Assembly (NCBI RefSeq): GCF_000187895.1
Contig: NZ_DS990134.1
Span: 372,001 to 436,000, forward strand
Source of the DNA: Phocaeicola plebeius DSM 17135
GTDB lineage: Bacteria > Bacteroidota > Bacteroidia > Bacteroidales > Bacteroidaceae
Reading direction: 5' to 3'
DNA: 64,000 nt
Shown here: positions 36,235 through 60,837 of the stretch, in pieces
Layout: the number at the start of each line of letters is the position of its first letter
How positions within the stretch are numbered: the first letter of the stretch is position 1
The notes under the pieces: model-generated
The model's input: the letters and a program-made list of their open reading frames with translations, nothing else
Databases searched by the model: none
Told to the model about the DNA's origin: nothing
Translations under genes and position numbers: made by a program

Positions 36235-37146
36235 TTACAATCTGTTCATATTTCTGGGGTGGTGTTCCAAGATTTCTTGGCGCAAGCGACTGCGGTCAAG
36301 GTGGGTATAAATCTCAGTCGTGCCTATACTTTCATGGCCCAGCATACATTGTATGGCTCGCAGGTTGGCGCCGCCTTCCAGCAGATGAGTAGCAAAAGAA
36401 TGACGGAAAGTGTGGGGGCTGATTGTTTTCTTCAACCCAATCTGTTCGGCTAGCTCTTTAATGATGTGAAAGACCATGATGCGTGAAATGTTTTTCCCGA
36501 AACGACTGATAAATACAAAATCTTCGTATCCAGGTTTTATCAGTCCTTCATTGCGGTCTGGAAAGTACAGTTCCAGTTCATGAATGGCGCGTGGGGAGAT
36601 GGGTACCAGCCGTTGTTTGCTTCCCTTCCCTTCTACTTTGATGAACTTTTCTTTTAGATAGAGATCGGATAGTTTCAGATTGCATAGTTCGGATACACGG
36701 AGTCCGCAACTGTATAGGGTTTCCAAAATAGCCCGGTTGCGCTGTCCTTCACGGGTGCTTCGGTCGATGCTTCCTATAAGCCTGTCTATCTCTTCTACCG
36801 TCAGTACGTCAGGCAGGTGTTTGCCGATTTGGGGTGATTCTAGCAATTCTGAGGGGTCTTGTTGTATGTAGTCTTCCAGTAAAAGAAAACGAAAAAAAGA
36901 GCGTATTCCAGACAAAATTCGAGCTTGGGAACGTGGGTGAATGCCGATGTCTCTTAATCCGGCTGAAAAAGTTTCCAAATTCTCCAGGGTGACCTCAGTA
37001 AAATGAATGCTTTCCAGTTCCAGAAATGCGAATAGTTTGTCCAAGTCTGTAAGATAAGCCTCCACCGTGTTTGCTGAAAGTGATTTTTCGAGTTTCAGGT
37101 ATTGCCTATACTTTATTATTATGCTTTTTTTATCGGCCTTTTTCAT
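36235..37146 (-). CDS. xerD: XerD-type tyrosine recombinase
   Basis: A 303-residue recombinase. The N-terminal SAM-like domain contains YRQYLKLEKSLSANTVEAYL. The catalytic set is Arg in LYSCGLRVSEL, Lys in KVEGKGSKQRLVPI, HTFRHSFATHLL (His and Arg), LGHESIGTTEIYTH (His and Tyr). Its length and place beside aroQ and pyk mark it as the chromosomal XerD for dimer resolution, not an integrase of the conjugative element. Divergent from aroQ. Confidence 0.92.
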   Translation of the reverse strand: MKKADKKSIIIKYRQYLKLEKSLSANTVEAYLTDLDKLFAFLELESIHFTEVTLENLETFSAGLRDIGIHPRSQARILSGIRSFFRFLLLEDYIQQDPSELLESPQIGKHLPDVLTVEEIDRLIGSIDRSTREGQRNRAILETLYSCGLRVSELCNLKLSDLYLKEKFIKVEGKGSKQRLVPISPRAIHELELYFPDRNEGLIKPGYEDFVFISRFGKNISRIMVFHIIKELAEQIGLKKTISPHTFRHSFATHLLEGGANLRAIQCMLGHESIGTTEIYTHLDRSRLRQEILEHHPRNMNRL

Positions 37147-43471: not shown

Positions 43472-43479
43472 TACCTTTG
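43472..43479 (+). promoter_or_regulatory. -7 promoter box TACCTTTG of Sus-like operon 1
   Basis: TACCTTTG lies at the end of a stretch (43450-43479) nearly identical to that before operon 2 (59067-59096), including CATATTATAGTTTTTATATA. The box is 31 bases before the leader ORF start. Confidence 0.75.
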
Positions 43480-43509: not shown

Positions 43510-43716
43510 ATGAATATAAATTCATTTTATATGATTATTGGCGTTAATAATCAAGATTTATTATTTCGTAACGTGAAATCGCGAGATTCATTTAGTATAT
43601 CTATTGGGTTCCAGAGGGGACTTTTATTGATGACGTTGTTCGTATTTTTTTCTGAAAGGTACTTTCTTGTGCGAAGTAGGCCTTTTGGTGTTATATCTGG
43701 CTGTATTCATAAATAG
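43510..43716 (+). CDS. Leader peptide ORF of Sus-like operon 1 (conserved N-terminal 28 residues)
   Basis: A 68-codon frame in the 5' leader of the SusC gene. Residues 12-28 (VNNQDLLFRNVKSRDSF) align with VNNQELVFRNVKSRDSF encoded before the second SusC. Between the two, nine of these seventeen codons differ only synonymously and two differ conservatively, which is the mark of translated sequence. Residues after 28 are not conserved and are hydrophobic (GLLLMTLFVFFSERYF). AGAGAG precedes the ATG. Function unknown; control of the downstream operon by leader translation is a natural guess. Confidence 0.55.
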   Translation: MNINSFYMIIGVNNQDLLFRNVKSRDSFSISIGFQRGLLLMTLFVFFSERYFLVRSRPFGVISGCIHK

Positions 43717-43789
43717 AGCCGGTACCTATATTTTTGTTTTTAGCTGAAATTTTTTATTTAATCATTAATTATTTTATAACAGGCAAAAG

Positions 43790-46723
43790 ATGAAAAGATT
43801 TAGTCTTTGGTTACTCTTTTTTGCAGTGTTAGGTATTCAGTCAGCCTTGGCCCAGTCGTATCGGGTAAAAGGTAACGTTGTGTCGAAGACAGGCAACGAA
43901 CCTCTGATTGGAGTATCTATCTTGCAAAAAGGAACTACTAATGGAGTGGTTACCGACATTGATGGTAACTATGAGTTGCAGATTCAGGGTGGCGAAGCTA
44001 CTTTGGTCTTCTCTTATATCGGTATGCAGACACAAGAGTTGAAAGTGAATTCACGTACCGGTGTGCTGAATGTAACAATGTTGGACGATTCACAGATGAT
44101 TGACGATGTGGTAGTCGTGGCGTATGGTGTGCGTAAGAAAGGTACCATTGCCGGTTCTGTATCGACTGTGAAAAGTGAGAAACTGGAAAATGTACCTACT
44201 GCCAGCTTTGACCAGGCATTGCAGGGACAGACACCGGGTTTGACCGTGATGGCAGCTTCTGGTGAACCTAGCCGTGCAGCCACTTTCCAGATTCGTGGTA
44301 CAAACTCTATTAACTCTGGTACTACTCCGTTGTTTATCTTGGATGGAGTGCCTGTAGAATCATCAAGCTTTAATTCAATCAGTCCTAGTGACATTGAAAG
44401 CATTTCAGTGTTGAAAGACGCTTCTTCTACTTCTATCTATGGTGCCCGTGCCGCAAACGGTGTAGTGGTGATTACCACTAAGCGTGGACGTAACGTAGGA
44501 GATGCCAATGTGACTTTCCGTGGTCAGTGGGGATTCTCACAGCTGGCCGGAAGCAACTGGGACATGATGAATACGGCAGAACGTATACAATATGAAAAAG
44601 AAATTGGTCTTGACCTCGGTGATGAGTATTATGATAAGGTAAGAGGTATAGACGTAAACTGGATGGATGAAGTGTTTAACAACAATGCTCCTACCCAGAG
44701 TTACGAACTTGCCGTGAATGGTGCTACCGAAAAAACGAACTATTATGTGTCGGGAGGATTCTTTGATCAGGATGGTATTACCTTCGGTTCCTCTTTCCGT
44801 CGTTATAATGTGCGTGCCAACGTAGAGAACCGTGCCAAAGAATGGTTGAAACTGGGAACAAGTACCATGCTTGCCTATCAGGAAACACAGCAGGCTGTGG
44901 ATGGATATTATGCCATTTATGCGCCGATTTCAGCATCACACTTTATGTTGCCTTACTGGAATCCTTACAATGAAGATGGTTCTTTGGCTTCTACCAATGA
45001 TGGAACCTGGAAGGGAAGTGGAGTAAACCCTATTGAATGGTTGACTAACAATCCGATCACATATAAAACCTATAAAGTGATTTCATCGGTTTTTGCTGAA
45101 GTGACTCCGATTGAAGGACTTACAATCCGTTCTCAGTTTGGTGTGGACTATTCACATGATACTGCTTTCTCTACCTCTACTCCAAGTTATTCTCTGAATG
45201 CTGGATTAGGTAGTGCCGGACGCTCATCGTTAGATGACCTGACTCTGACCATTACCAATACGGTTAATTATCGCTTTAACCTGAACGACAGACATGATTT
45301 CAACTTTATGTTGGGTCAGGAAGGGGTGAATTATCATTCTGAGAATTTCAATGTTACTACAAGCAAGCAGAACAATGACGCGCTGGTAAATCTTTCGTCA
45401 GGTTCATTTGCAGCTTCATGGGGCGATTCTACTACGGAATATGCTTTCCTGTCTTTCTTTGGACGTGGTGAGTATAACCTGGATGGCAAATATTATGCAG
45501 ACTTCTCTGTACGTGCAGATGCTTCTTCACGTTTTGGTAAAGACAATCGTTGGGCTGGTTTCTGGTCTGTAGGTCTGATGTGGGACTTCAAGAAGGAAGA
45601 GTTCTTTGAGGGTTATGACTGGCTTACCAATGCTCAGCTGACATTCAGTACAGGTACTTCTGGTAACTCTTCTATTTCTAACTATGAACATCTGGCTTTG
45701 GTGACAGGTAGTTCCAACTATCTGGGTGAAACAGGAATTAAACCTTCACAGCGTGGAAATGAGAATCTTACTTGGGAAAAACTTTGGACAACTAACGTAG
45801 GATTGCGTCTGGGCTTCTTTGACCGCATAAACTTTACAGCCGAATTTTATAATAAGCTGACTACTGACATGTTGATGCAGGTGCCTGTAAGCTATGCCGA
45901 TGGAGGTTACGGATCTTATTGGGACAATGTAGGTGCAATGGTTAACCGTGGTATCGAATTGTCGGTAGATGCAGACATTATCCGTACAAAAGATTTTACC
46001 TGGAATGTGTTTGCCAATGCTTCTTTCAATAAGAACAAACTTACGGAACTTTATAACGGAATTGACCAGTATGTAGACAGTAACGTAAACATGTATGCAG
46101 TAGGACACGATGTAGCAAACTTCTACATGGTACGTTATGCAGGTGTGAATCCGGCAAACGGAGATGCACTCTGGTATACTAAAGACGGTGAGATTACCAA
46201 TGTGTTCAGCGAAGAAGACCGTGTGTTGATTGAAGGAAAGAGCTTCATTGCTCCTTGGCAGGGTGGTTTCGGAACAACACTTTCATGGAAAGGCTTGATG
46301 CTTTCTGCACAGTTCAGCTGGATGGCAGACCGTTGGGCTTACAACAATGACCGTATTATGGATGAAAGTAATGGTTTGTATACTTCTTATAACCAGTCAA
46401 AACGTTTGCTTTATGACCGCTGGAAAGAACCTGGAGATGTGACAGATATTCCTCGCCATGGAATCACACCTCAGTTTGATACGCATTACCTGGAAAATGC
46501 TTCCTTCTTGCGTTTGAAGAACCTGATGCTTTCTTACAATCTACCTCAGAGTGTATTGAAAAGTACGAAATTCTTTAACGGAGCGCGTGTGTATGTACAA
46601 GGACAGAACTTATTGACATTTACTAAGTTCACCGGACTTGATCCAGAATTTTCTTCTAACATATACCGTGCACAGTATCCTATGTCACGTCAGTTTACTT
46701 TGGGCGTAGAATTGAATTTTTAA
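43790..46723 (+). CDS. SusC-like TonB-dependent outer-membrane transporter (operon 1)
   Basis: A 977-residue protein with a signal peptide (LFFAVLGIQSALAQ). The N-terminal carboxypeptidase-like extension is GVSILQKGTTNGVVTDIDGN. The TonB-box-like DDVVVVAYGVRKKGTIAGSV precedes the plug domain (FQIRGTNSINSGTTPLFILD; SVLKDASSTSIYGARAANGV). The barrel ends with RQFTLGVELNF, an aromatic terminal residue. It forms the import pore with the SusD protein downstream. The first 160 residues are close to the second SusC in this window, so the two are recent paralogues. Confidence 0.95.
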   Translation: MKRFSLWLLFFAVLGIQSALAQSYRVKGNVVSKTGNEPLIGVSILQKGTTNGVVTDIDGNYELQIQGGEATLVFSYIGMQTQELKVNSRTGVLNVTMLDDSQMIDDVVVVAYGVRKKGTIAGSVSTVKSEKLENVPTASFDQALQGQTPGLTVMAASGEPSRAATFQIRGTNSINSGTTPLFILDGVPVESSSFNSISPSDIESISVLKDASSTSIYGARAANGVVVITTKRGRNVGDANVTFRGQWGFSQLAGSNWDMMNTAERIQYEKEIGLDLGDEYYDKVRGIDVNWMDEVFNNNAPTQSYELAVNGATEKTNYYVSGGFFDQDGITFGSSFRRYNVRANVENRAKEWLKLGTSTMLAYQETQQAVDGYYAIYAPISASHFMLPYWNPYNEDGSLASTNDGTWKGSGVNPIEWLTNNPITYKTYKVISSVFAEVTPIEGLTIRSQFGVDYSHDTAFSTSTPSYSLNAGLGSAGRSSLDDLTLTITNTVNYRFNLNDRHDFNFMLGQEGVNYHSENFNVTTSKQNNDALVNLSSGSFAASWGDSTTEYAFLSFFGRGEYNLDGKYYADFSVRADASSRFGKDNRWAGFWSVGLMWDFKKEEFFEGYDWLTNAQLTFSTGTSGNSSISNYEHLALVTGSSNYLGETGIKPSQRGNENLTWEKLWTTNVGLRLGFFDRINFTAEFYNKLTTDMLMQVPVSYADGGYGSYWDNVGAMVNRGIELSVDADIIRTKDFTWNVFANASFNKNKLTELYNGIDQYVDSNVNMYAVGHDVANFYMVRYAGVNPANGDALWYTKDGEITNVFSEEDRVLIEGKSFIAPWQGGFGTTLSWKGLMLSAQFSWMADRWAYNNDRIMDESNGLYTSYNQSKRLLYDRWKEPGDVTDIPRHGITPQFDTHYLENASFLRLKNLMLSYNLPQSVLKSTKFFNGARVYVQGQNLLTFTKFTGLDPEFSSNIYRAQYPMSRQFTLGVELNF

Positions 46724-46738
46724 AAGCTGAAGACAACG

Positions 46739-48253
46739 ATGAGAAACTTTAAAATATATTTATTAGGAGTAGCGGCGATGCTGTTCTCTACTTCATGTTT
46801 GGACAAGGACCCTACACATGCTATTCTGGCCGATCAGTCCATTACTACAGTGGAAGAAGCCAATCAGGCTGTCATGGGAATTTACTCAGACTTCATGAGT
46901 CGTTATCTGTATAGTGGTAATCTGACTTTGTTGCCTGATATCCAGTCAGATTTGGTATATGCTGTAAATGGCTACTCCAATACTTATGGAGATATCTGGC
47001 GCTGGAACATCAATCCTACCAATGCAGATATTGAAGCAGTTTACGGTTCACTTTACAAAGTGATTGGTGACTGTAACTTCTTCTTTGAACAAGTGGCTAA
47101 ATGGGAAAATGACATTGTAGATGATGATGCTTACGAGAAACTGGAAGCGTATAAGGGAGAAGTATATTTTGCCCGTGCTCTGGCTTATTCAGAATTAATC
47201 AAATGTTTCTGTAAGGCATACGATCCGGCTACTGCTAAGGATGAACTGGGTGTAGTGCTGGTATCAAGCTATTCTAACCCGGGCGAAATGAAGCGTGCCT
47301 CTTTGTATGATTCATATCAGTTTGTCCTGAATGATTTGGCAAAGGCTTATGATTATATGGAGCCGGATGAAGGTACTACGCTTGTGGCATCTGACTATTA
47401 TGATTCACCTTATTTCAATGAATTTACGGTGCAGGCACTGATGGCTCGTGTATACCTCTATATGCAGGATTGGGATAATGCCATTAAGTATTCTTCTAAG
47501 TTGATAGACAGTGATTTGTATCTGCTTTCAAGTGCCACTACAGTCTATACAAACGATATGTCATATTATGACTATATGTGGAAATATGATGCCTCTACTG
47601 AGACTATCTGGAAAGTAGGTTTCTTGCCCACATCCTATGGTGGTGCATTGGGACAGGTATTCTTGAACTTTGATGAGATCAGTTATCGTCCGGATTATGT
47701 ACCTGGACAAGCTGCACTGAACACGTATGAGGGAAATGATTTGCGTTATGCTTCTTTCTTTCAGGATATGCCGACCGGATATTCTCATGGTTTGGTTTGG
47801 CCATTGCTGATGAAGTATTATGGAAACATGGAGTTTGTTTCTAATTACCGTATTTATCATGTGAATATGCCGAAAGTATTCCGCTTGTCAGAACAGTATC
47901 TGATTCGTGCAGAGGCATATTGTCAGAAAGAAGACTTTGCAAAGGCATCTGCTGATATTTCTACTTTGCGCCAGGCACGTTATCAATCGTATGGTTCTGC
48001 TACTCTGACTTCAGAAAACTGGCTGGATGAAATTGACAAGGAGCGTCTTCGTGAATTGTTTATGGAAGGATTCCGCTTGCAGGATTTGAAACGTTGGGGA
48101 AAAGGCTTTGAACGTAAACCTCAGGAACAAAGTGTGAGCGATGGAAGCAGTCTGAAAATAGAAGCTGGCAATCCGTTGTTTGTATGGCCAATTCCGCAGC
48201 ATGAACTTGATTTGCCGGGCTCTGCCATTGAACCGAATGAAAGTAATAAATAA
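46739..48253 (+). CDS. SusD/RagB-like surface lipoprotein (operon 1)
   Basis: A 504-residue lipoprotein (lipobox FSTSC near residue 20). SusD features are the N-terminal TTVEEANQAVMGIYSDFMSR, TPR-like FTVQALMARVYLYMQDWDNA and the C-terminal LSEQYLIRAEAYCQKEDF. RERLRELFMEGFRLQDLKRW and FVWPIPQHELDL follow. It is the surface lid of the SusC pore and binds substrate. It starts 16 bases after the susC-like stop. The substrate cannot be predicted from this sequence. Confidence 0.95.
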   Translation: MRNFKIYLLGVAAMLFSTSCLDKDPTHAILADQSITTVEEANQAVMGIYSDFMSRYLYSGNLTLLPDIQSDLVYAVNGYSNTYGDIWRWNINPTNADIEAVYGSLYKVIGDCNFFFEQVAKWENDIVDDDAYEKLEAYKGEVYFARALAYSELIKCFCKAYDPATAKDELGVVLVSSYSNPGEMKRASLYDSYQFVLNDLAKAYDYMEPDEGTTLVASDYYDSPYFNEFTVQALMARVYLYMQDWDNAIKYSSKLIDSDLYLLSSATTVYTNDMSYYDYMWKYDASTETIWKVGFLPTSYGGALGQVFLNFDEISYRPDYVPGQAALNTYEGNDLRYASFFQDMPTGYSHGLVWPLLMKYYGNMEFVSNYRIYHVNMPKVFRLSEQYLIRAEAYCQKEDFAKASADISTLRQARYQSYGSATLTSENWLDEIDKERLRELFMEGFRLQDLKRWGKGFERKPQEQSVSDGSSLKIEAGNPLFVWPIPQHELDLPGSAIEPNESNK

Positions 48254-48275: not shown

Positions 48276-49172
48276 ATGAAAAGATTTTTCGGAAAATTGG
48301 GAATAATTGCCTTTGCTGCCACATTGTTTGTTGGATGTAGCGAAGACCGTGTTTCCTATGCAGGTCCTGACTATGTAATGTTTTCTGATTCGTTGCAGAC
48401 CATTGCTATACAAAACTCAGAGACCTATTATGATATTCCTGTTTCTGCCACTACGGCATGTGATTATGATCGTACGTATGCCGTAGAGGTAGTCGATAAG
48501 GGAAGTAATGCCATTGAAGGATTACACTATGAACTGCAGTCAAACTCTGTTACCATTAAGGCTGGAGAATTGGCTTCTTCTGTAAAAATCAAAGGCTTCT
48601 ATGAGAACTTTGAGGATACAGACTCTTTGGGTATCAATCTGAGACTGGTTGCACCACAAGAAAAAATCTGGGATATATACGGGGATGAAACAAAGGTACA
48701 GCTTGTAAAGATTTGCCCGTTTGATATTCAGCGTTTTATAGGATATGCTAAAGTTACTTCCAATTTCTTTACGGATTATATGCAGGATACGGAATTCCGT
48801 TTGGTGACTGTAGAGCAAGATCCGGAAAAAGAGAACGGAGTTATTATTAATGACTTCTTCCTGGATGGAATGGACCTGAAAATCAGTTTTAATACGCAGA
48901 AACCCCTTGAACCCAAGGTGGAAATGGAAACTCAAGCGGTTACCAAGTTGTCAGAGATTAGTGGTGGAGCGGTATTGGGAACAGACATGGTTTTGGCTGT
49001 GCCTTATACAGGAGCAGTTTCATACTTTAATGTATGTCAGGGTTTTGCTCTGCTGTATCACACTTTCTATGTGGAGGGATATGAGTCAGCTGGTCCGATA
49101 GGTACATACCCGACTGTAGTTGAATGGATTTCTGAAGAGGAATATAATTATCTGAAGAAACAAGGATATTAA
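48276..49172 (+). CDS. DUF4843/DUF4984-like surface lipoprotein
   Basis: A 298-residue lipoprotein (FAATLFVGC lipobox). The N-terminal half contains a Calx-beta-like region, DYVMFSDSLQTIAIQ then TYYDIPVSATTACDYDRTYA and VEVVDKGSNAIEGLHYEL. Families of this kind (DUF4843, DUF4984) follow SusD genes in many Bacteroidales loci; I cannot fix which one applies. The C-terminal half is beta-rich and without cysteine pairs. It is probably a surface glycan- or protein-binding accessory. Spacing of 22 bases from susD. Confidence 0.6.
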   Translation: MKRFFGKLGIIAFAATLFVGCSEDRVSYAGPDYVMFSDSLQTIAIQNSETYYDIPVSATTACDYDRTYAVEVVDKGSNAIEGLHYELQSNSVTIKAGELASSVKIKGFYENFEDTDSLGINLRLVAPQEKIWDIYGDETKVQLVKICPFDIQRFIGYAKVTSNFFTDYMQDTEFRLVTVEQDPEKENGVIINDFFLDGMDLKISFNTQKPLEPKVEMETQAVTKLSEISGGAVLGTDMVLAVPYTGAVSYFNVCQGFALLYHTFYVEGYESAGPIGTYPTVVEWISEEEYNYLKKQGY

Positions 49173-49197: not shown

Positions 49198-50769
49198 ATG
49201 AAATATATAAACATATTATCAAAAATGTGGCTTATAGCTGTAGCTGCGATGGTTGTGGCTTGTTCTGAGGATGAGGGGGCACCTGTGACTCCTTCTTTCC
49301 CGGAAGAAGAACAAATCCTCTCGGTGAAGGCAGGAGAGTCTGTTGAAATTGTTTTTGATGCCTCAATGGATTGGAAACTGTATTCTTCAACTTTGTGGTG
49401 TAGATTCTCTAATGGAATGACTTCTATTAGCGGGCAGGCAGGAAAGCAAGCCGTACAGGTGTCTGTAAATGAAGACATGCTGAATTATGGAGAAATGCAG
49501 GCCGAAATTACCTTGAAACAGGGTGATGTGGAAAAAGTCATTGCAAAACTGACTCGTCAGGGTGAGATGTTGCTGGCAGTAGGCGAAGAAGGTGAAATTT
49601 TTACGGAAGAGTCTCCATTATTGCTGAATTTCTCTAGAACAAGTACCACTTTGAGCTTTACTGAGAGCTTTACGTTGAATTTCCCTTGGGAATTTGATCA
49701 GGCTTCATTGCCAGAATGGTTAGCAGTGAAGAATCCTCCAGTGAAAGGAGGCATGCATCAGAAAGCAGAACTTACCGTGGAGATTACAGATGATTATTTG
49801 GCAAATGAATGGACAGGAAGCTTTCGCTTCAAGATGCAGGGAGAAGATCGTTATGCAGATGTACCTGTGAAATATACAGGATTGCCTGCTGATGAGTTGG
49901 TTATTAGAGGAATTTCTACGAAGTGGAACTGGAGTGTTTCAACGGATGGACTGCAATACTGGACAGGCGGATTGACAGAAGGTGATGACGAACCTGAAAA
50001 ACTTTCTTTCCCATTGTCATTTAGAGTCTTAGCAAAGAACAGTGAATATGTGGTGAAGGCTGTTTATCAGGATGGAGACTATCTTTGGATAGATGGAGTT
50101 GATGGAGCAAAAGCGTTCTTTGATATCAAAGATGATGCTCATGGGAATTTGGAGTTGTGTAATGTGCAGGAAAATACATCTGCCAAAAGAAGAGGTTATA
50201 TACTGGTATTCCCTAAAAGTGTGTATGATGAACTTTCTCATGGAGGTACATGGTCTGATATGAATACTTTGTTAAATTCTGAGGGAACGGATCTTTCTGA
50301 GGATGTGAGTGATGAATATATTGTGATGGTATTTGATCAGGAAAGTTCACAAACTTCTTCTGTTGCTCCTGTGAAAGTAAATGTAAATGGTGAAGGTGAT
50401 ATCGAAGCTACCCAGGGCATGGGAGAAATCTTGAATCCGGATGTGCTGGAGGCTGTTAATCAACTTTATTTTGCAGATAATGAGAATAAGAATGATTATA
50501 TATTTAATTATTCTGTATCGGCAAAGAGCGAGGTGATCATTACTCCTTATATCAAAAACTACTTTGGTGAAAATTCTCCTATCGGTTCATGTGAAGTAAG
50601 ATCTTTCTCTGATCCATGGAGTCCGGATTCATCGATTGCGGTAAGCCAAGAGGGGGATACTTATGAAAACAGTAATGTGTATTTCCAGTGTGGAAATGAA
50701 TCTTTACTTGTTATATTTAAAGATGATTTTGGAATGGTTTGTAAAGTATTGATATTAAATATCCAATAA
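49198..50769 (+). CDS. Surface lipoprotein, possibly DUF5003-type
   Basis: A 523-residue lipoprotein (VAAMVVAC lipobox). The N-terminal domain (EQILSVKAGESVEIVFDASM) looks Ig-like, with a second beta domain near residues 130-220 (FSRTSTTLSFTESFTLNFPW). The C-terminal half is beta-rich with no enzyme motif. I recall DUF5003 for similar proteins but am not sure. It starts 25 bases after its neighbour and is followed two bases later by the LRR lipoprotein, so it belongs to the operon. A binding role at the surface is inferred. Confidence 0.5.
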   Translation: MKYINILSKMWLIAVAAMVVACSEDEGAPVTPSFPEEEQILSVKAGESVEIVFDASMDWKLYSSTLWCRFSNGMTSISGQAGKQAVQVSVNEDMLNYGEMQAEITLKQGDVEKVIAKLTRQGEMLLAVGEEGEIFTEESPLLLNFSRTSTTLSFTESFTLNFPWEFDQASLPEWLAVKNPPVKGGMHQKAELTVEITDDYLANEWTGSFRFKMQGEDRYADVPVKYTGLPADELVIRGISTKWNWSVSTDGLQYWTGGLTEGDDEPEKLSFPLSFRVLAKNSEYVVKAVYQDGDYLWIDGVDGAKAFFDIKDDAHGNLELCNVQENTSAKRRGYILVFPKSVYDELSHGGTWSDMNTLLNSEGTDLSEDVSDEYIVMVFDQESSQTSSVAPVKVNVNGEGDIEATQGMGEILNPDVLEAVNQLYFADNENKNDYIFNYSVSAKSEVIITPYIKNYFGENSPIGSCEVRSFSDPWSPDSSIAVSQEGDTYENSNVYFQCGNESLLVIFKDDFGMVCKVLILNIQ

Positions 50770-50779
50770 AATGCATGAT

Positions 50780-53371
50780 ATGATTAAGAAACTAAGAAAT
50801 ATACATGTGATCTGTACTAACCTGATTCTTCTGTCGTTGTTATTTTTAGGTTTTGGATGTAATGATGACAAGGAAGTGTTTCAGACCGGTAACGGTTATG
50901 TACAGTTTAAGGTGTACAAGAGCGCATCTTATGTAAAGGATGAGGCCTCTCGTGCAGGTGGAAATGTACTTGATTCACTTTATGAGGCAAATAAAGTGAA
51001 AGTGGTGTTGAGAAGCAATGATTATGACTTCTCTCAGACACTTATGTTGCATGCGTATGATGAACAAAGTGCAGAATATGGCTTGCGTAGTGACAAACTG
51101 GAATTGCAGCCGGGGGAATATACCGTGGTAGGTTTTTATCTTTACGATAGAGCGGAGAAAGAGCCTATTTTTGCTGGTATCCCGTCTGAAAAAACAACCT
51201 TTACAATTGTAAGTGGTGGGCTTGTTATGCAAGACTTGCTGGTGGATGCAATCGGTAAAGGTCTAGTAAAGTTTGAATTGATTAAGAATATTCAGTCATC
51301 TCGTGGTGCAAGTGATTCTGAACCTTATCCATTTAGTGATATTAATAAAGTGGACATAAAGGTACAGAATATGGATACGAAGGAAACCCAGGAGTTTAAG
51401 TCTTTGAAAGTAACGTATGTAGAGGACTTTGATGGTCAGGGTATCGGTTATCGTACTTCTGTAGGGAGAATTGATACACTTGTTACAGCTGAGGCTGGAA
51501 ATTACAAGATTCTTTCGTACGCGGCATATAACCGTACGGAACTTTTGCAATATTTTAATGATGAGGTATTAGGTGAGGCTACATTTACGGTCACTGATAA
51601 CAAGCAGACGGAAGCAAAAGTTCCTGTTACTATATTGGAAACAGCTGCAAACATAAAAGATTATTATAATCTTCGTACTTTGTGGGAGCAGCTAGGAGGA
51701 CAAAACTGGTCTTATGTTGGTGAAAGCTATCCGCAAGGAACTAACTGGGATTTTGAAAATAAAGATGTGGACATGTGGGGCGACCAGCCGGGAGTAAGCC
51801 TTGACAAGAATGGTCGTGTGATAGGTCTGTCTATTGGTGATTTTAATCCGACAGGAGAGGTACCTGATGTGATTGGCGAGTTTACAGAACTTCAAAGTTT
51901 GGCTTTGGGTACACACAATGATAAATTGCGCCCCGGGGAAAATCCGTTGGCTGATTTAAAGGGTGGCTTGACTCCTGCAGTTCTTGAAGAACTTCGTTCT
52001 GACTACATGGATAATTTTGCATTGCGCGATTCCAGACAGGATTGGGATGTGCAGATGCAACGCTGTATGGTAGAATCCGGGCAACCGGCTATCAAGAAAT
52101 CCATAGTACAGCCTAAGGATGTAATTCATGGTGATATGACCAACGGCATTAAAGGTATCAGTGAAGCAATTGGAAAGTTGCAGAAGCTTGAAGTGTTGTA
52201 TATTGCCAATTCACCTATTGCAGAGTTACCTCAAGCTTTGGGTGATTTGGAAAGTTGTACAGACCTTGAAATTTACAATTGTTCTCGCCTGACAGCATTC
52301 CCTGATCAGCTGGCTAGAATGAAGAATCTGACTCAGTTGAATATGGCAATGAATCCTCAGTTAGCGGCAGCGTTCCCAGACGGAATAAAAAAATTGGCAG
52401 AGGGTGATGCAGGTAAATCTTTACAGATTCTTTACTTAGGTTATAATAATATCGCATCTTTACCGGCAGAAGTTTCTAAGATGAAGAAGCTGGGTAAGAT
52501 TGATTTGATATACAATAAGTTGACAGCTCTACCTGCTTTTGGAAAAGATGTAAATTTGGTTCAGGGTACTTTTGATTATAATAAGATTGCAAGTATTGCT
52601 ACAGATGAGAATGGTATATTCTGTGGTATGGACGATGTGGAATCATTGTCTTTCTCACACAATGAACTGACAGAATTTCCAGATATATTTGACGCAAGCT
52701 CAATTTATATAATGGCTTCTGTGAACTTCTCTTATAACAAGATTAAGAAGGTTGCTACAAAGAAAGGAATCAATGTGAATGAGTTGTCTTTGGCTGGCAA
52801 TGAACTAGAAAAGTTCCCGGCAGATTTGTTTAAGACTAATTCTCCATTGACGGTGCTGAATCTTAGTGGAAATAGAATCAAGGATTTTACCAATGAAGAT
52901 ATGAAGGGTGCCAAAGTGTATATGATGACAAGCTTTGACTTATCAAATAACCGTTTGGAAAAACTTCCGGATGATTTGAACGGAACCACTATGCCACACT
53001 TGTATGGTATTGATATAAGCGGAAACCAGTTGTCGGCATTCCCATGGGGATTGGCAAATATTTCTTATCTGAATACATTGATTATGCGTAATCAGCGTGA
53101 TGATGACGGTAACCGTGTATATAAGGAGTGGCCTACAAATATTGGTAACCACAAAGGCTTACGTGCATTGCTTTTGGGTGGAAATGATATTGGAAAGGTT
53201 CCTGAGACAGAAAAACTTTCGTATCTTATCAATACACTCGATGTAAGTGATAACCCTAACCTCATTCTTAATGTATCATCTGTTTGTCCTTATATCAAGG
53301 CTGGCATGTATTTGCTGATTTATGATACGACACAAGATATTCGTGGATGTGATTATCTGACTTTGGAATAA
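50780..53371 (+). CDS. Large leucine-rich-repeat surface lipoprotein (DUF4458-type)
   Basis: An approximately 863-residue lipoprotein (LLSLLFLGFGC lipobox). The N-terminal part contains beta domains (VQFKVYKSASYVKDEASRAG; LQPGEYTVVGFYLYDRAEKE). From about residue 360 on there are LRR-like repeats (LQSLALGTHNDKLRPG; LEVLYIANSPIAELPQALGD; LTVLNLSGNRIKDFTNED; FDLSNNRLEKLPDDLNGT). LRR surfaces usually bind proteins. ATG 50771 is an alternative start. It is probably a receptor or adaptor for the substrate of this operon. Confidence 0.75.
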   Translation: MIKKLRNIHVICTNLILLSLLFLGFGCNDDKEVFQTGNGYVQFKVYKSASYVKDEASRAGGNVLDSLYEANKVKVVLRSNDYDFSQTLMLHAYDEQSAEYGLRSDKLELQPGEYTVVGFYLYDRAEKEPIFAGIPSEKTTFTIVSGGLVMQDLLVDAIGKGLVKFELIKNIQSSRGASDSEPYPFSDINKVDIKVQNMDTKETQEFKSLKVTYVEDFDGQGIGYRTSVGRIDTLVTAEAGNYKILSYAAYNRTELLQYFNDEVLGEATFTVTDNKQTEAKVPVTILETAANIKDYYNLRTLWEQLGGQNWSYVGESYPQGTNWDFENKDVDMWGDQPGVSLDKNGRVIGLSIGDFNPTGEVPDVIGEFTELQSLALGTHNDKLRPGENPLADLKGGLTPAVLEELRSDYMDNFALRDSRQDWDVQMQRCMVESGQPAIKKSIVQPKDVIHGDMTNGIKGISEAIGKLQKLEVLYIANSPIAELPQALGDLESCTDLEIYNCSRLTAFPDQLARMKNLTQLNMAMNPQLAAAFPDGIKKLAEGDAGKSLQILYLGYNNIASLPAEVSKMKKLGKIDLIYNKLTALPAFGKDVNLVQGTFDYNKIASIATDENGIFCGMDDVESLSFSHNELTEFPDIFDASSIYIMASVNFSYNKIKKVATKKGINVNELSLAGNELEKFPADLFKTNSPLTVLNLSGNRIKDFTNEDMKGAKVYMMTSFDLSNNRLEKLPDDLNGTTMPHLYGIDISGNQLSAFPWGLANISYLNTLIMRNQRDDDGNRVYKEWPTNIGNHKGLRALLLGGNDIGKVPETEKLSYLINTLDVSDNPNLILNVSSVCPYIKAGMYLLIYDTTQDIRGCDYLTLE

Positions 53372-53386
53372 TTTAAGAAATAATGT

Positions 53387-55312
53387 ATGAAAAGATTTTT
53401 TAATACTATAATGATTATTTCGGCCTGCATGGTATTGGCGATATCCTGTAAGGAAGAAGACAATGTCGTGTCAGAATTCTCTATTGATAAGACGGAGATT
53501 GCTATCGGGGCCGATGGTGGTAGCGAATTGCTGGAGATAAAAGGCAATGTCAAGTGGCAGGGAACTTCAGAAAGTTCTTGGTTGAAGTTTAGTCCTTCCA
53601 ATGGCGAAGGATCGGCTATTTGCGAAGTTTTAGTAGACTCATCTGTAGTGGCAGAGCCGCGCGAAGGTGTTATTACTTTTATGGCGGCAGGTCAGACTTC
53701 TGCAACTACTGTAAAAGTAATGCAGATGGGATATGCAAAAGGTATCTTTGTAAGTGAAGAAGACAGAACGATTTCTGTAGAGAATTCAGCAAAACTGGAG
53801 GAGCGTTTCTTTGAGGTTACAATGATGGCCAATGTGAATTTTGATGTGCAAGTCAACAACTTGCCGGCTGAAGACGGAACTGTTGATAAAGAATGGCTGA
53901 CATACAAGAAAGAAACTCCCAATTATGAGTATGGTGATCGTCCGCGTTTATTGAAATTGCATTTTGACTGGGATGTCAACATGAGTGAAAAAGCACGTAC
54001 AGCTGAAGTGATTATTACTCCGCAGGAAACATCTGATACGGAAGGAGACGGAGCGATAAAACTGGTAGTTACTCAGAAAGCAGCTCCGGTAATTACTGAT
54101 GACAGAGCTGGTGACTCTCTGGCTATTCTCTCTATATACAGCAGTATGAACGGTCTGTTTGCCTGGGATGCCAGTGAGAATATGAGATACTGGAAAGGTG
54201 TAGAACTTTGGGAAGCTACTGACAAATATATCAAGATAGAAGCAGACGGAACGATTAATTATTCTGCTCCAGTGCCTGAAGAACTGGTTGGCCGTTTGAA
54301 ATCTGTAGAGTTTACTTTATTTGAAACAGAAGAATCGCTTCCCTATCAAGTGAAATATCTTAAAACAGCGGAATCAATTACTTTCTCAGGAAACTCTAAT
54401 ACATTCTTAAAGAATATTGTATTGGGAAATGAAATTTGTGACCTGGTGAAATATGGCAACTTGCGTAAACTTACTGTACGTGCTTATGGTTTAGTGGGAC
54501 TGCCGGTAAACTTTACTGAGTTTGGAAAGACACTTATCTCTTTGGATTTGAGTAGCAACAATTTTGAGGTGATGGGTAAGTCTGGCAGTACTATAAATGG
54601 AGTGAAAGTCTTAGGTATTGAGAGTATTACTCGGGAGAATTTCCCGCATTTACGCAATTTGTATCTGAATAAGATTAATCGTTATGATACAACGAAAGAC
54701 CTTTCAGCCTATACAAATAAGAAAGATGAAAAGTTAGGTTTCCGTTGGACTACAGGTTTTGGAGAAGGATTTCTTACTCCGGCAGAAGGATATAATAATT
54801 CTTATTTCAAAGAATTGCTGAAATGGGAAGAACTTGAATGTTTGTCATTGTCCTTGAATATGCTTGATGGTCAGTTGCCTTCGGATGCAGAAGTTAAACA
54901 GCTTCTTGGTGCAGATAAGGTTTATACGGAAAGCTATATCCAGAATGCTGAGTATAAGGATACCATTTCAATTCAGGATGCTGAAAAATATTTGCTGGCA
55001 AATGGAGGAGCTCCTAGGGTTTGGCCGAAGATGAAGAGTCTTTCTTTGAACTTGAACTTCTTGACCGGAAAGTTGCCTGATTGGATATTATATCATCCAT
55101 ATCTTACTTTCTGGGATCCGTTTACTATGATTTTCCAGCAGGAACTTAGTACTACGGCTTCAAAAGCTAAGAATACAAAGGGTGAGGTTATTACGACGTT
55201 TAGTAATGAGCCTACAAACTTGAGTAATTATGGCGAAGGGAAGACAAGTTATTATGAAATGTATCCTAAGAGAAAACCTCAGATTACAGATGACTCTACA
55301 GAAGAGAATTAA
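53387..55312 (+). CDS. BACON-domain surface lipoprotein with LRR-like region
   Basis: A 641-residue lipoprotein (MVLAISC lipobox). An N-terminal BACON domain (FSIDKTEIAIGADGGSELLE; WLKFSPSNGEGSAICEVLV) is followed by a second beta domain (TISVENSAKLEERFFEVTMM). A repeat-like C-terminal region has LISLDLSSNNFEVM, FPHLRNLYLNKINR and MKSLSLNLNFLTGKLPDWIL. BACON domains commonly serve as spacers or mucin/glycan-binding modules; the LRR-like part points to protein contact. It starts 15 bases after the previous gene. Confidence 0.7.
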   Translation: MKRFFNTIMIISACMVLAISCKEEDNVVSEFSIDKTEIAIGADGGSELLEIKGNVKWQGTSESSWLKFSPSNGEGSAICEVLVDSSVVAEPREGVITFMAAGQTSATTVKVMQMGYAKGIFVSEEDRTISVENSAKLEERFFEVTMMANVNFDVQVNNLPAEDGTVDKEWLTYKKETPNYEYGDRPRLLKLHFDWDVNMSEKARTAEVIITPQETSDTEGDGAIKLVVTQKAAPVITDDRAGDSLAILSIYSSMNGLFAWDASENMRYWKGVELWEATDKYIKIEADGTINYSAPVPEELVGRLKSVEFTLFETEESLPYQVKYLKTAESITFSGNSNTFLKNIVLGNEICDLVKYGNLRKLTVRAYGLVGLPVNFTEFGKTLISLDLSSNNFEVMGKSGSTINGVKVLGIESITRENFPHLRNLYLNKINRYDTTKDLSAYTNKKDEKLGFRWTTGFGEGFLTPAEGYNNSYFKELLKWEELECLSLSLNMLDGQLPSDAEVKQLLGADKVYTESYIQNAEYKDTISIQDAEKYLLANGGAPRVWPKMKSLSLNLNFLTGKLPDWILYHPYLTFWDPFTMIFQQELSTTASKAKNTKGEVITTFSNEPTNLSNYGEGKTSYYEMYPKRKPQITDDSTEEN

Positions 55313-55431: not shown

Positions 55432-57471
55432 ATGAAGAAAAAATATATTTTTGCCGCTCTTGTGAGTGCTATGGGATTGTTTTCTTGCTCTGATTCTGAA
55501 ACGTTCTTAGAATCGGGTGTGCAAGAAAATACGGTAGCTCCTATATCTGGCTTGGCTGACGAGGCAGTGGAAGGTGAACTTCTCATCAAATTTAAGCCAG
55601 AAGTGGAAGAAGTACTTGAGAATGCTCAAATGTTAAGCCGCAGTGGAGTGCAGACTCGTTCTAGTATTCCTTCGGTAGATGAAATACTGGATATTGCCGG
55701 TGCATATACTTTTGAACGTGTCTTTCCTGTAGATAAACGTCACGAAGAACGTACCCGTAAAAATGGTTTGCATTTGTGGTATGTGGTGAAGTTTGATAAG
55801 GATATGGACCTGAATAAGGTAGCCTTGGATATGTCTAAACTTTCTGAGGTGGCAACCGTGGAATATAATCAGGTTATAAAGAGAGGATATGATACCACAA
55901 AAAAAGCGAAGGGGTTGAATAGTGCTACAAGAGAAGCTATTCAAACATTAGGCAGCCAGGCTGAAAATATGAAACTTCAGTGGGGTATAGGAAATGACGG
56001 AACTGTGGTTGAGGGTGCTCGTGCCGGATACGATGTAAATTGTGCTACAGCCTGGGAAAAATGCCAGGGAGATCCTTCTATTATTGTGGCCGTAGTGGAT
56101 GAAGGGGTTATGTATAATCATGAGGATCTTGCTAATAACATGTGGATTAATCCTGCTGAAACATTCGGGTCGGATGAAGATGCGGATGGCAATGGATATG
56201 CAGGTGACAAATATGGCTATAATTTTGTTGCAGGTAATGGTCATATCTCATATACGCAAACAGGAGATACAGGACATGCGACCCATGTAGCAGGAGTAAT
56301 TGCTGCAGATAATAATGAAGTAGGTATTCGAGGAATTGCTGGAGGTAATGGAACTCCTGGAACTGGTGTGAAGATTATGTCTTGCCAGATTTTCAGTGGA
56401 AATGGTAGTTCATCTGTCTTAAATCAAGCTAAAGCTATTAAGTATGCAGCGGATAACGGAGCTGTAATCTTGCAGTGCAGTTGGTCTGCTTCATCTGGAC
56501 GTATCAATCCTTTGATGGGTACTCCTGGCTTTACTTCGGATGAAGAATGGTCTAGTTCTGTAGTACTTCAGAAAGAGGCTTTGGAGTATTTTATTCATAA
56601 TGCTGGCGATCCTAACGGAGTAATTGACGGAGGTATTGCTGTTTTTGCAGCAGGTAATGAATACGCTCCTATGGTCAGCTATCCGGGAGCTTATGGTGAC
56701 TTTGTTTGTGTAACTGCACTTGATCCGGCTGGAAAACCTTCTTGTTATACGAATTATGTCAGCCCGAGTGGAAGTAAGAATTTGATTGCTGCTCCTGGTG
56801 GTGATGCTAATGCATTTAAGAGCGAAAAAGCATCTATTCTTTCTACAATGCCGAATTCAGCTATTGAGGGTTCCGATCTTACAGCAAGTCAAAGTGGGTA
56901 TGGTTATATGGATGGAACTTCAATGGCTTGTCCGCATGTGTCGGGAGTAGCTGCTTTAGGTTTGTCTTATGCTGCCAAATTGCGTAAGCATTATCGTGCA
57001 GCGGATTTTAAAGACTTGCTGCTGGCGTCAGTAAGAGATTTGAGTAGCAATCTTTCAGGCGAGAAGAGTTATTGGGAGAATTGGGGAAGTGTAGGTGATG
57101 CTGCTCCTCATCTGAGAATGAACTTGCCGGCATATAGAGATAACATCGGAGGCTTGATAGATGCACAAGCTGTGCTGGACAATATTGATGGCAGTAACTA
57201 CGGTGCTCAGCCTATGCGTGTGCCTAATGTATATGTAGCCCTTGATGCCACAGAGGTAGTAGATTTGAACAGAGTCTATGCAGAAAATGTTACTGCTACA
57301 GAGTTCAATGTCGTGGATAGCAGTATTGCTGCTGTTTCTTTGAACAACAATCAGTTGACGGTAAAAGGTACTAAGGTAGGAACCACCAAAGCTTCTGTTA
57401 CTAGCAGTGATGGACAGACACAAGAATTTGTGATTACAGTACGTAAAGCGACTGGCAACGGGTGGATGTAA
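55432..57471 (+). CDS. Subtilisin-like S8 serine protease lipoprotein
   Basis: A 679-residue protease with a lipobox-like LVSAMGLFSC. The N-terminal propeptide-like region (EGELLIKFKPEVEEVLENAQ) precedes the catalytic triad: Asp in VAVVDEGVMYNHEDL, His in GHATHVAGVIAA, and Ser in GTSMACPHVSGVAAL; the oxyanion Asn is in FAAGNEY. The motifs differ slightly from consensus (DEG for DTG, HAT for HGT). A C-terminal Ig-like Big domain (VVDLNRVYAENV; LTVKGTKVGTTKASV) ends it. All catalytic residues are present. It probably cleaves surface-bound protein for the SusCD pore. Confidence 0.9.
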   Translation: MKKKYIFAALVSAMGLFSCSDSETFLESGVQENTVAPISGLADEAVEGELLIKFKPEVEEVLENAQMLSRSGVQTRSSIPSVDEILDIAGAYTFERVFPVDKRHEERTRKNGLHLWYVVKFDKDMDLNKVALDMSKLSEVATVEYNQVIKRGYDTTKKAKGLNSATREAIQTLGSQAENMKLQWGIGNDGTVVEGARAGYDVNCATAWEKCQGDPSIIVAVVDEGVMYNHEDLANNMWINPAETFGSDEDADGNGYAGDKYGYNFVAGNGHISYTQTGDTGHATHVAGVIAADNNEVGIRGIAGGNGTPGTGVKIMSCQIFSGNGSSSVLNQAKAIKYAADNGAVILQCSWSASSGRINPLMGTPGFTSDEEWSSSVVLQKEALEYFIHNAGDPNGVIDGGIAVFAAGNEYAPMVSYPGAYGDFVCVTALDPAGKPSCYTNYVSPSGSKNLIAAPGGDANAFKSEKASILSTMPNSAIEGSDLTASQSGYGYMDGTSMACPHVSGVAALGLSYAAKLRKHYRAADFKDLLLASVRDLSSNLSGEKSYWENWGSVGDAAPHLRMNLPAYRDNIGGLIDAQAVLDNIDGSNYGAQPMRVPNVYVALDATEVVDLNRVYAENVTATEFNVVDSSIAAVSLNNNQLTVKGTKVGTTKASVTSSDGQTQEFVITVRKATGNGWM

Positions 57472-57491: not shown

Positions 57492-58286
57492 ATGAGAACT
57501 GTAATTATCTGGATGTTCATATTGCTTTCTGTGTCTTCTTTGATGGCACAGAAAGCCTTTTCTCAAAAGGAGCTTGATGCTGTGCTGAATCCTGTATTGG
57601 TTGAGCATGCGGAAGAAATGCTTCGTTTTGAACGTATGGAGATAAATGCAGGAACTCTGTCTGAGGATGATAAACCGCAAGTTTTCGCTTTTATTTGCAC
57701 GAATATCGGAACGGAAAAGGTGGTGGTAACGAAGATTACGACTACATGTGGATGTACAAATGCTCAAATAGATTCTCCGATAATTAATCCAGGAGAAAAG
57801 GCGATGATTCGATTGACTTATAATCCGTTCGGACAGCCGGGAACTATTTACACCAGAGCTTTTGTATATGCTAGTATCTCAGAAAAAAGACCGGTTGCGG
57901 CATTGACTATTTTGGGAAAGGTAACTCCTTCGGCTGCTTTATGGAAGGATTACAGGTATACCATGGGGCATTTAAAAATACGTGCTAAAACACTAAATAT
58001 GGGAACTGTAACGTCTACTATGCGTAAGGTTGAGCGAATAGCTTGCGCTAATGCCGGAAGTGCTCCTTTAAAGATTGGTGCTGTAAAGGGATTCCTTCCA
58101 GAATTCTTGAGTTTACGAACGGAACCTGAGGTTTTGGAGCCTGCACAAGAAGGCTTCTTGATTGTGGAACTGGATGGAAAAAAACTTTTCGAACAGAAGG
58201 GGCAGAAATCATTCAGTATTTTACTTGATGGTATTTCTGGGCGACCATCCGATAGGACAATAAAAATAAGTATGGATATAAAATAG
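57492..58286 (+). CDS. DUF1573 secreted protein
   Basis: A 264-residue protein with a signal peptide (ILLSVSSLMAQ). Two ASPM/SPD-2/Hydin-like beta domains are visible: FICTNIGTEKVVVTKITTTC with CGCTNAQIDSPIINPGEKAM, and ACANAGSAPLKIGAVKG. The TTCGC motif typical of DUF1573 is intact. Proteins of this type are periplasmic or surface and of unknown function; they are common at the ends of Bacteroidales operons. It starts 21 bases after the protease gene. Confidence 0.75.
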   Translation: MRTVIIWMFILLSVSSLMAQKAFSQKELDAVLNPVLVEHAEEMLRFERMEINAGTLSEDDKPQVFAFICTNIGTEKVVVTKITTTCGCTNAQIDSPIINPGEKAMIRLTYNPFGQPGTIYTRAFVYASISEKRPVAALTILGKVTPSAALWKDYRYTMGHLKIRAKTLNMGTVTSTMRKVERIACANAGSAPLKIGAVKGFLPEFLSLRTEPEVLEPAQEGFLIVELDGKKLFEQKGQKSFSILLDGISGRPSDRTIKISMDIK

Positions 58287-58308: not shown

Positions 58309-58779
58309 ATGGTAAAATTCATATTCAGAATTATGATGTGTGTCTCGTTGCTGGCAATGACAACGGCTTGTAGCGAGGACGAAGAGACTCCAGTGGTATA
58401 TCAGGAGGTAAATTATGCCACTATGAATGGAACATGGATGTTGACCGAATTTAATGGGGCACCCTTGCAAGAAGGTCAATATGTATATATTACGTTTAAT
58501 AGAAAGGAACATACTTTTGAGATGTATGAAAATATGGGAAGTATGTATTCACATAAATCTACAGGCTCTTTTGAAATTGAAGAAGATGAAGATTTGGGAT
58601 ATATTTTGACGGGTGAATATGATTATTCACATAATCCGTTGAAAGAATACATTGTTTCAGAAATGACTGATGAAACAATGAAGTGGACTGTGAAGGATAA
58701 CGCAGAAGATGTATCTGTATATACACGTTGTGCGGAAATTCCTGAAGATATTTTGAATGGAAGTAGAAGTTTGAAATAA
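58309..58779 (+). CDS. Small lipocalin-like lipoprotein
   Basis: A 156-residue lipoprotein (SLLAMTTAC lipobox). The start of the mature part, MNGTWMLTEFNGAPLQEGQY, followed by FNRKEHTFEMYENMGSMYSH and FEIEEDEDLGYILTGEYDYS, resembles the lipocalin-like small lipoprotein families of Bacteroidales. It is the last gene of operon 1 and is followed by a terminator. Function unknown. Confidence 0.6.
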   Translation: MVKFIFRIMMCVSLLAMTTACSEDEETPVVYQEVNYATMNGTWMLTEFNGAPLQEGQYVYITFNRKEHTFEMYENMGSMYSHKSTGSFEIEEDEDLGYILTGEYDYSHNPLKEYIVSEMTDETMKWTVKDNAEDVSVYTRCAEIPEDILNGSRSLK

Positions 58780-60431: not shown

Positions 60432-60433
60432 AT

Positions 60434-60477
60434 TATCTGCAAGTTTTCAACCATAAAGGTACAAAAACTTGCAGATA
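60434..60477 (-). repeat. 14-bp inverted repeat in the transposase 5' leader
   Basis: TATCTGCAAGTTTT (60434-60447) and AAAACTTGCAGATA (60464-60477) pair perfectly, three bases from the transposase start. The loop holds a TACCTTTA box on the minus strand. It may block translation from read-through mRNA (inference). Confidence 0.65.
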
Positions 60478-60559: not shown

Positions 60560-60646
60560 ATGGATATAAATTCATTTTATATATTCTGGTGTGTTAATAA
60601 TCAGGAATTGGTATTTCGAAATGTAAAGTCTCGTGATTCGTTTTAA
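60560..60646 (+). CDS. Leader peptide ORF of Sus-like operon 2 (28 residues)
   Basis: Codons from ATG 60560 to TAA 60644-60646 encode MDINSFYIFWC followed by VNNQELVFRNVKSRDSF. AGGGG lies five to nine bases before the start. Against the leader ORF of operon 1, nine of 27 compared codons differ only synonymously and seven change the residue, with only two of these (D/E, L/V) in the last 17 codons. The conserved block ends exactly at this stop. The IS lies 18 bases upstream, so the ORF no longer follows its native promoter. Confidence 0.55.
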   Translation: MDINSFYIFWCVNNQELVFRNVKSRDSF

Positions 60647-60837
60647 TGCATTTGCTTAACCTAAGGGAAATTCTGTGTAAAAACCATTGTTCATTTTATT
60701 TTCTTAAAGACGCAATTATTAACTATGCGTTTTTTTACACGTTTAAGCATCTCTTAATTGAGAGGTTTGTATCTGTATTATTGATATTTGACTGAAATTT
60801 TTATTTAATCATTAATTTATTTTATAACAGGCAAAAG
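60647..60837 (+). other. Leader of susC-like gene 2 with attenuator-like hairpin
   Basis: ACGCA (60710-60714) and TGCGT (60726-60730) form a short hairpin followed by a T-run (60730-60736). GTGTAAAAA (60675-60683) can instead pair with TTTTTACAC (60732-60740), sequestering the T-run. A CTCT...AGAG hairpin follows near 60751-60764. The last 50 bases before the ATG match operon 1. Confidence 0.35.

Follow-up and report, generated by a model that had tools for sequence, protein, structure and literature searches.

The closest described system is TnaC, which leads the tnaCAB operon of E. coli and undergoes termination arrest induced by tryptophan; in it, W12, D16, I19 and P24 are the critical residues (PMC10941005) and WFNID is the sensor motif (PMC8429421). 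SpeFL, an arrest peptide that senses L-ornithine, would work alike, through a nascent chain and a small metabolite (PMC8429421). Within the same phylum as the leaders studied here, the uDF_NAP-stop and uA_NSP-stop candidates are also upstream ORFs with a fixed C-terminus, but their stop is preceded by N-A-P or N-S-P and their targets are genes of protein export (secDF), and a predicted localisation signal served as a filter for the NAP-stop set (PMC10987492). The present leaders have neither that Pro nor targets of this kind. In the CruR/RAPP/RGPP leaders, as here, an upstream ORF controls the gene of a TonB-dependent receptor (PMC12992588), and the B. thetaiotaomicron transcriptome contains unvalidated leader-like sORFs in general (PMC7366714). 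These summaries follow the accessible parts of the papers. By eye, neither a RAPP/RGPP motif nor an N-A/S-P-stop motif occurs in the listed susC and tnaA/ior leaders. We take the uA of uA_NSP-stop to be secA. Regulation of SusCD operons is generally attributed to sigma/anti-sigma, hybrid two-component or SusR-type regulators, and to our knowledge metabolite-sensing bacterial arrest peptides are few, TnaC and SpeFL being the known ones.

The DNA analysed here (called the window for simplicity) is a stretch of 64,000 nucleotides from Phocaeicola plebeius DSM 17135 with two SusCD operons, each preceded by a short leader ORF. Like TnaC, these leaders have relatives in Bacteroidales that lie before tryptophanase (the window copies precede susC), their C-terminal half is conserved while the N-terminus varies, and an aromatic-x-N-I stretch resembles WFNID. 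They differ from TnaC in that a conserved Trp and a Pro preceding the stop are both missing, the motif continues as K-x-R-D-x-F, the stop follows 2-11 residues after RD and was lost twice (operon 1 and genome G030), and the targets include indolepyruvate oxidoreductase-like (ior-like) genes and susC. W12, D16, I19 and P24 were not found as a set in the Bacteroidales leaders, Trp accounts for 3 of 1096 residues in 45 leaders of tnaA/ior genes, and Pro is at the C-terminus of 0 of the 46 listed tnaA/ior leader peptides; since the defining TnaC residues are absent, we did not class the leader as TnaC. Because the distance to the stop varies and the stop was lost in two copies, a fixed spacing of the stop cannot be required for arrest. 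C-terminal conservation, a free N-terminus and a position in cis, which mark ribosome arrest peptides in general, are all found in the leaders, and stalling is predicted for them. The literature searched, with most subscription papers and all preprints outside its scope, contained in its accessible parts no description of this peptide and none of the regulation of indole formation in gut Bacteroidales at the level of a leader peptide. The preliminary description knew of no described leader peptide of this sequence controlling SusCD operons; the nearest found here are the C-terminal-Pro leaders (PMC10987492) and the RAPP leaders (PMC12992588).

Leader ORFs of the window and their relatives in Phocaeicola

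The following features, all on the plus strand, are referred to below.

43472..43479, +, predicted -7-like promoter box TACCTTTG of operon 1 (read from the sequence)
43510..43716, +, leader ORF 1, 68 aa and TAG (sequence reading, script)
43564..43593, +, conserved core FRNVKSRDSF, the motif common to tryptophanase leaders (pattern and profile searches)
43606..43623, +, terminator-like hairpin GGGTTCC-AGAG-GGGACTT, then TTATT, 12 nt past the core
43790..46723, +, susC 1, SusC/RagA TonB-linked outer membrane protein (Pfam; NCBIfam TIGR04056, 1.4e-251)
46739..48253, +, susD 1 (Pfam)
48276..49172, +, DUF4984 protein (Pfam; DUF4843 match below its cut-off)
49198..50769, +, DUF5003 protein (Pfam)
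50771..53371, +, DUF4458/LRR protein (Pfam)
53387..55312, +, BACON-domain protein (Pfam)
55432..57471, +, S8 subtilase-family peptidase of operon 1 (Pfam)
57492..58286, +, DUF1573 protein (Pfam)
58309..58779, +, lipocalin-like protein (Pfam)
60560..60646, +, leader ORF 2, 28 aa and TAA (sequence reading, script)
60709..60731, +, terminator-like hairpin GACGCA...TGCGTT, then TTTTT, in the spacer between leader 2 and susC 2 (script without shuffle control)
60838..63783, +, susC 2 (Pfam)

Leader ORF 1 starts with MNINSFYMIIGVNNQDLLFRNVKSRDSF and leader ORF 2 encodes MDINSFYIFWCVNNQELVFRNVKSRDSF followed by its stop. Both ORFs, at 43510 and 60560, carry the common peptide core reported in the preliminary description, and alignment of their last 17 codons reproduced the nine synonymous codons (Q, L, R, N, V, K, S, R and S) and two conservative changes (D/E and L/V) given there. 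The reported gap of 31 bases between the predicted -7-like box (43472-43479) and the ATG at 43510 was also correct. The Bacteroidota -7 consensus is TAnnTTTG, and a script found no perfect box of this kind in the region upstream of operon 2. Leader ORF 1 had been said to end at 43593, but this position is the end of the last common Phe codon: the conserved part covers 43510-43593 (28 codons), and the frame stays open for 40 further codons to the TAG at 43714-43716, 73 nt before susC 1. Aligned with ORF 1, leader ORF 2 has one extra T and an immediate stop. At 43593 leader 1 has lost the stop that leader 2 shows, and its extension (43594-43713) appears to follow from this loss. Conservation had been described as ending exactly where leader 2 ends; as a correction, the last ~40 nt before susC 1 and susC 2 (43752-43789 and 60798-60837; TTTATTTAATCATTAATT...AACAGGCAAAAG), separate from the leader, are nearly identical as well.

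A degenerate pattern of the last ten residues with up to three mismatches matched twice in the window, at the two leaders, and two matches were reached in 0 of 100 shuffles. Likewise, the 28-residue leader used as a query retrieved only the two leader copies in the window genome at E<=10. The window has no match at gathering score to 15 Rfam RNA families; 16 leader loci searched against Rfam by E-value gave three weak matches, all at one locus (L192), outside the leader and below the gathering scores. Four leaders had no match in NCBIfam and a sole match in Pfam, to ExoX-like_C at E 0.009, below the gathering score, and no match to the leader was found in plasmid records by tblastn.

Judged from the gene layout, the lipocalin-like gene is the probable end of operon 1. 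Operon 2 extends beyond the window, where it encodes SusD, BACON and LRR proteins and a DUF4843-like protein (below cut-off); an S8 peptidase was not found among the seven operon 2 proteins tested. The neighbouring genes scanned at both operons include no sigma/anti-sigma or hybrid two-component regulator. The region 59124-60477, just upstream of leader 2, holds a DDE transposase gene (DUF772/DDE_Tnp_1; minus strand), which starts 128 nt upstream of the leader ATG, together with a 14-nt perfect inverted repeat (60434-60447/60464-60477), and may have replaced the native promoter of leader 2. A tyrosine-recombinase (Phage_integrase) gene is found between other genes at 36235-37146 on the minus strand.

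Thirteen motif-bearing leader copies were identified before SusC-like genes in 12 of 61 Phocaeicola genomes. The 28-residue query matched 31 of 149 related genomes at E<=10, and ten same-genus loci among the 14 read were leaders before SusC-like genes. With a profile of 11 leaders, 12 copies were recovered from 11 of the 61 genus genomes, all at E 1.4e-14 or better; the 13th copy (G006) was found by reading the orthologous operon and with a second profile, and the other four of five further weak-match loci read in the genus were chance. The G006 leader, MHTYITLRNNSKPYKSIWLNIKRRDDL, located upstream of its susC, has a tryptophanase-type core, WLNIKRRDDL before the stop, and appears to bridge the susC and tryptophanase leader groups. 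In G022 (L235) the short first ORF MNNEMKFPFLFDGCDIMSYMVSELESF is kept before the orthologous susC and the motif has decayed, which we read as a natural loss variant. The layout of operon 1 including the S8 peptidase recurs at three loci (L204-L206), and the three downstream proteins tested at L203 were LRR, BACON/LRR and one without match. The leader motif is present in nine of the 12 genus genomes with a full-length S8 orthologue (at least 48% identity, window included), on the same contig as the peptidase in seven of these nine and on different contigs in G039 and G008; the other three lack it, namely G022 with its decayed motif and G024 and G034, in which no leader was seen.

The leader is under strong coding selection. 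Between the two window copies, pN/pS over the last 17 codons was 0.06 (Nei-Gojobori). The preliminary description had suggested a search for relatives with a dN/dS-type comparison: over 11 genus copies, pN/pS was 0.25 in frame versus 1.51 and 4.18 in the shifted frames, the open cores of motif-bearing copies being partly due to the construction of the search. This supports its view that selection acts on the peptide and not on the DNA alone. The set was drawn from the 12 profile copies with G059 omitted (its peptide equals that of G008); the G006 copy was added to the collection later.

The motif upstream of tryptophanase genes

The motif [FY]-x-N-[IV]-K-x-R-D-x-[FY] is also found at the end of a short ORF that lies upstream of tryptophanase (tnaA). 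The first clue was a leader matched by the susC-leader query at E 0.45 (L025), VNRKQLFRNIKARDTF and stop, which directly follows a TATCTTTG box and lies 49 nt before tryptophanase. We sought tnaA in 198 Bacteroidales genomes, 143 of which had a match at 1e-60; at 30 tnaA loci that were read, the short ORF was present in 23 as judged by the later profile. This 13-column profile (A3) was built from 30 cores and run over the same 198 genomes. For 84 of 122 tabulated tnaA genes it gave a match on the same strand and less than 450 nt upstream, with a motif-to-tnaA distance of 41-290 nt (median 84), and the other 38 had no profile match upstream. Since the profile holds leaders from the first 30 tnaA loci, the held-out count is given as well: matches were found at 61 of 92 held-out loci and at 23 of the 30 read beforehand. 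The table of 122 genes omits leader matches above E about 0.2 and partial tnaA rows, namely G102 (match 85 nt upstream), G269 and the second G098 fragment (no match). Two lyases that were tested fall into NCBIfam NF053783, tryptophanase TnaA, above its cut-off, and the lyase identities at L191, L194, L230 and L231 rest on the N-terminal sequence read by eye.

Among 30 lyase loci read in Bacteroidaceae, the motif was found at three, corresponding to 3 of 21 tnaA-like loci and 0 of nine loci of the ~40%-identity type; two of the three have the same peptide and one locus is cut by its contig. The window genome has no tnaA at 1e-60, so that there it is the motif by itself that provides the link to tryptophan. 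Twelve of the best 78 profile matches in the order sample do not lie beside a tabulated tnaA. These comprise the two window leaders, three additional tnaA genes (two recognised by eye, in G268 and G106, and one placed by the coordinates of its partial gene, in G102), two ior-like genes, one ligase, two contig ends (G204 and G116), one thiolase-side match and one chance match inside a gene (G101). The two ior-like genes encode a fused indolepyruvate:ferredoxin oxidoreductase-like protein (TIGR03336, E about 1e-114, below the equivalog cut-off), and the ligase gene is acetate-CoA-ligase-like (acyl-CoA-ligase-like; below cut-offs) and is followed by tnaA. At the thiolase-side match (G136, L193, minus strand), MKPFSLYFCFVSRKTVFINIKNRDRY and its stop precede a small gene and one that is thiolase-like; this genome gave no tnaA match at 1e-60.

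In the class sample, five of 247 genomes matched at E<=0.05: two Phocaeicola, two leaders and one chance match. The two leaders precede lyase-like genes outside the order; the rarity of the motif in this sample may partly reflect rarity of tnaA. A profile of the 40 unique tnaA/ior cores, with no susC leader included, was run against 11,030 six-frame segments from the window and 11 loci holding ten susC leaders. Nine of the ten susC leaders took ranks 1-9, eight of them with E no higher than 0.05; the remaining one (G003) came 13th. We also read 20 weak-match loci (E about 0.06 to 0.5), 19 of which were chance and one a real variant (L225 in G270). Five further weak matches in the order sample (L195-L199) were rejected as chance.

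The anatomy of the peptide was derived from 45 tnaA/ior leaders (46 rows minus L103, whose peptide equals L102). These leaders, like the 40 cores of the profile above, were chosen with a regular expression in which I/V, K, R and D are fixed, and these columns are therefore invariant by construction; in the others, the residue two before N is F/Y in 43 leaders, N is present in 44 of 45, and the residue two after D is F/Y in 42. Within the motif, Arg is encoded by all six of its codons and Asn, Lys and Asp by both of theirs. The leaders are 14-36 aa long under automatic start choice, 38 have a perfect -7 box, and in 33 the start lies 15-35 nt after the box. The tail from RD to the stop has two residues in 12 of 45 leaders and 3-11 in the other 33, and like the N-terminal part the tail past the motif is freely variable.

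Proposed action of the leader and alternative explanations

On this analysis the leader is probably a cis-acting, TnaC-like regulatory nascent peptide that answers to tryptophan or a related signal. The data show selection on the translated peptide, a short ORF following the promoter box, and one motif before both tryptophan-catabolic genes and these susC genes; from them we infer the arrest, its ligand and the downstream coupling as follows. Translation of the susC transcript would begin with the leader, whose C-terminal motif would be read inside the ribosome exit tunnel, where nascent chain and tunnel would together form a tryptophan site and the ribosome would slow or arrest, by analogy with TnaC as presented in the accessible parts of its descriptions (PMC8429421, PMC10941005). 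If arrest occurs, the F/Y codon would be expected in or beside the P site. A ribosome parked at the leader end would keep an attenuator hairpin or Rho from acting and so allow expression into susC; in the nearer cases it could mask the terminator-like stem. Across Bacteroidales, peptides of this class would control tryptophanase operons and, less often, those for indolepyruvate oxidoreductase and acyl-CoA ligase. In Phocaeicola, and as a variant in one other family, the leader precedes SusCD operons that encode BACON and LRR proteins and in some cases an S8 subtilase, and free tryptophan would thereby switch on peptide harvesting. The preliminary description had left the role as attenuation, stalling or a secreted signal; of these, stalling or attenuation becomes likely and a secreted signal unlikely in view of the link with tryptophan catabolism in Bacteroidales. 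More tentatively, and as a plausible possibility to which we would not yet commit, the leaders may constitute a nascent-peptide tryptophan sensor class of the Bacteroidales' own, unrelated to TnaC, stalling in elongation and not at a stop codon, and governing tryptophanase and ior genes as well as SusCD operons for the harvest of proteins or peptides (the latter in Phocaeicola and one other family). If true, the leader would join the few bacterial arrest peptides that sense metabolites, gut tryptophan would be linked to indole production and peptide scavenging via one ribosome-based signal, and a ribosome-based amino-acid signal would control a TonB-dependent uptake operon.

Hairpins after the leader were examined in both groups. 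For operon 1, one terminator-like hairpin was found against a shuffle mean of 0.1. Counted without shuffles, terminator-like stems are present in five of 12 susC spacers, 12-65 nt past the core (operon 1, 12 nt; G054 and G046, 28 nt; G003, 41 nt; operon 2, 65 nt), and absent from the other seven. Such stems are present in 3 of 44 tnaA/ior spacers versus 0.55 in mononucleotide shuffles. Folding of the whole spacer was not significant against shuffles (z -0.33 for operon 1 and -0.86 for operon 2). Post-leader hairpins with paired changes in two Phocaeicola subgroups, seen without a formal covariation test, are a lead. An excess of C over G was considered as a mark of Rho: the tnaA spacers have C 548 : G 292 with a leader and C 198 : G 135 without one, and the bias is reversed in 10 of 12 susC spacers. 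As such a mark the bias is not specific; it is weaker yet present without a leader.

An arrest peptide with another trigger, be it indole, another amino acid or short peptide, or translation stress, seems unlikely but deserves weighing, as the sequence evidence for it is identical to that for tryptophan. The susC operons handle peptides or other polymers and not tryptophan as such, the host genome is without tnaA at the threshold given above, and the kept residues differ from those of TnaC, all of which would suit a different ligand. However, the strong matches away from tabulated tnaA genes and outside the window are mostly themselves tnaA, ior-like or a ligase beside tnaA, and if the trigger were a general stress, the leader should occur before a wider range of genes.

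Alternatively, the leader might act by being translated and not through its nascent chain, with ribosome reinitiation or coupling enhancing expression of the gene that follows. It is common for a short first ORF to precede a gene, and we counted in favour of this explanation the spacing peak of upstream short ORFs at 11-14 bp in Bacteroidetes, as given in the accessible part of PMC4833913. The spacers measured here, 31-179 nt for tnaA/ior leaders (leaving out rows L090 and L164; the gene starts of these two and of L176 look mis-assigned), 92-200 nt for susC leaders from the usual stop and 73 nt for operon 1, lie beyond this peak, and the single fixed C-terminal motif, in which codons are chosen freely, would stay unexplained, so that we regard such an action as very improbable. 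Even less credit is given to an independent bioactive or secreted micropeptide: selection at the amino-acid level would suit it, but there is free variation in the N-terminal part and in the tail beyond the motif, and those leaders that were read precede catabolic or uptake genes (signal sequences judged by eye). A codon-starvation attenuator of the TrpL type, or a DNA or RNA binding site that is open by chance, is strongly disfavoured despite the hairpins after the leader in several Phocaeicola copies, as there are no runs of Trp codons and Trp is rare in the 45 leaders, the motif is written with the varied codons described above, and the shifted frames show no protein-level constraint.

Variant leaders in another family

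Two genomes of one genus in another family (G270 and G166) have leaders ending in WRNIKRRPx and a stop before a SusC-like gene, and the leader was found in two of five genomes of this genus. G270 (L225/L262/L293) has tandem leaders, ending in WRNIKRRPA and WRNIKRRPM, before one susC. In G166 (L263/L292), the leader MRLNLAIKEFKCCSLIWRNIKRRPF, which ends in WRNIKRRPF and a stop, lies 115 nt before SusC, with a decayed copy upstream. Aromatic-R-N-I-K-x-R is kept in these leaders and Pro replaces Asp; the tandem and decayed copies are best read as duplication of a leader with Pro for Asp. A search of the order sample with a two-row profile of the variant found 25 matches at E<=0.1, spread over 20 of its 198 genomes, and among the matches read no clear leader of this kind was seen besides those of G270 and G166. 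Gene by gene, the G166 operon is 67% identical to operon 2 in SusC, 52% in SusD and 23-38% in the next six genes. The variant, which left the weighting of the explanations as it was, strengthens the tie between leader and operon and weakens the claim that the Asp is indispensable.
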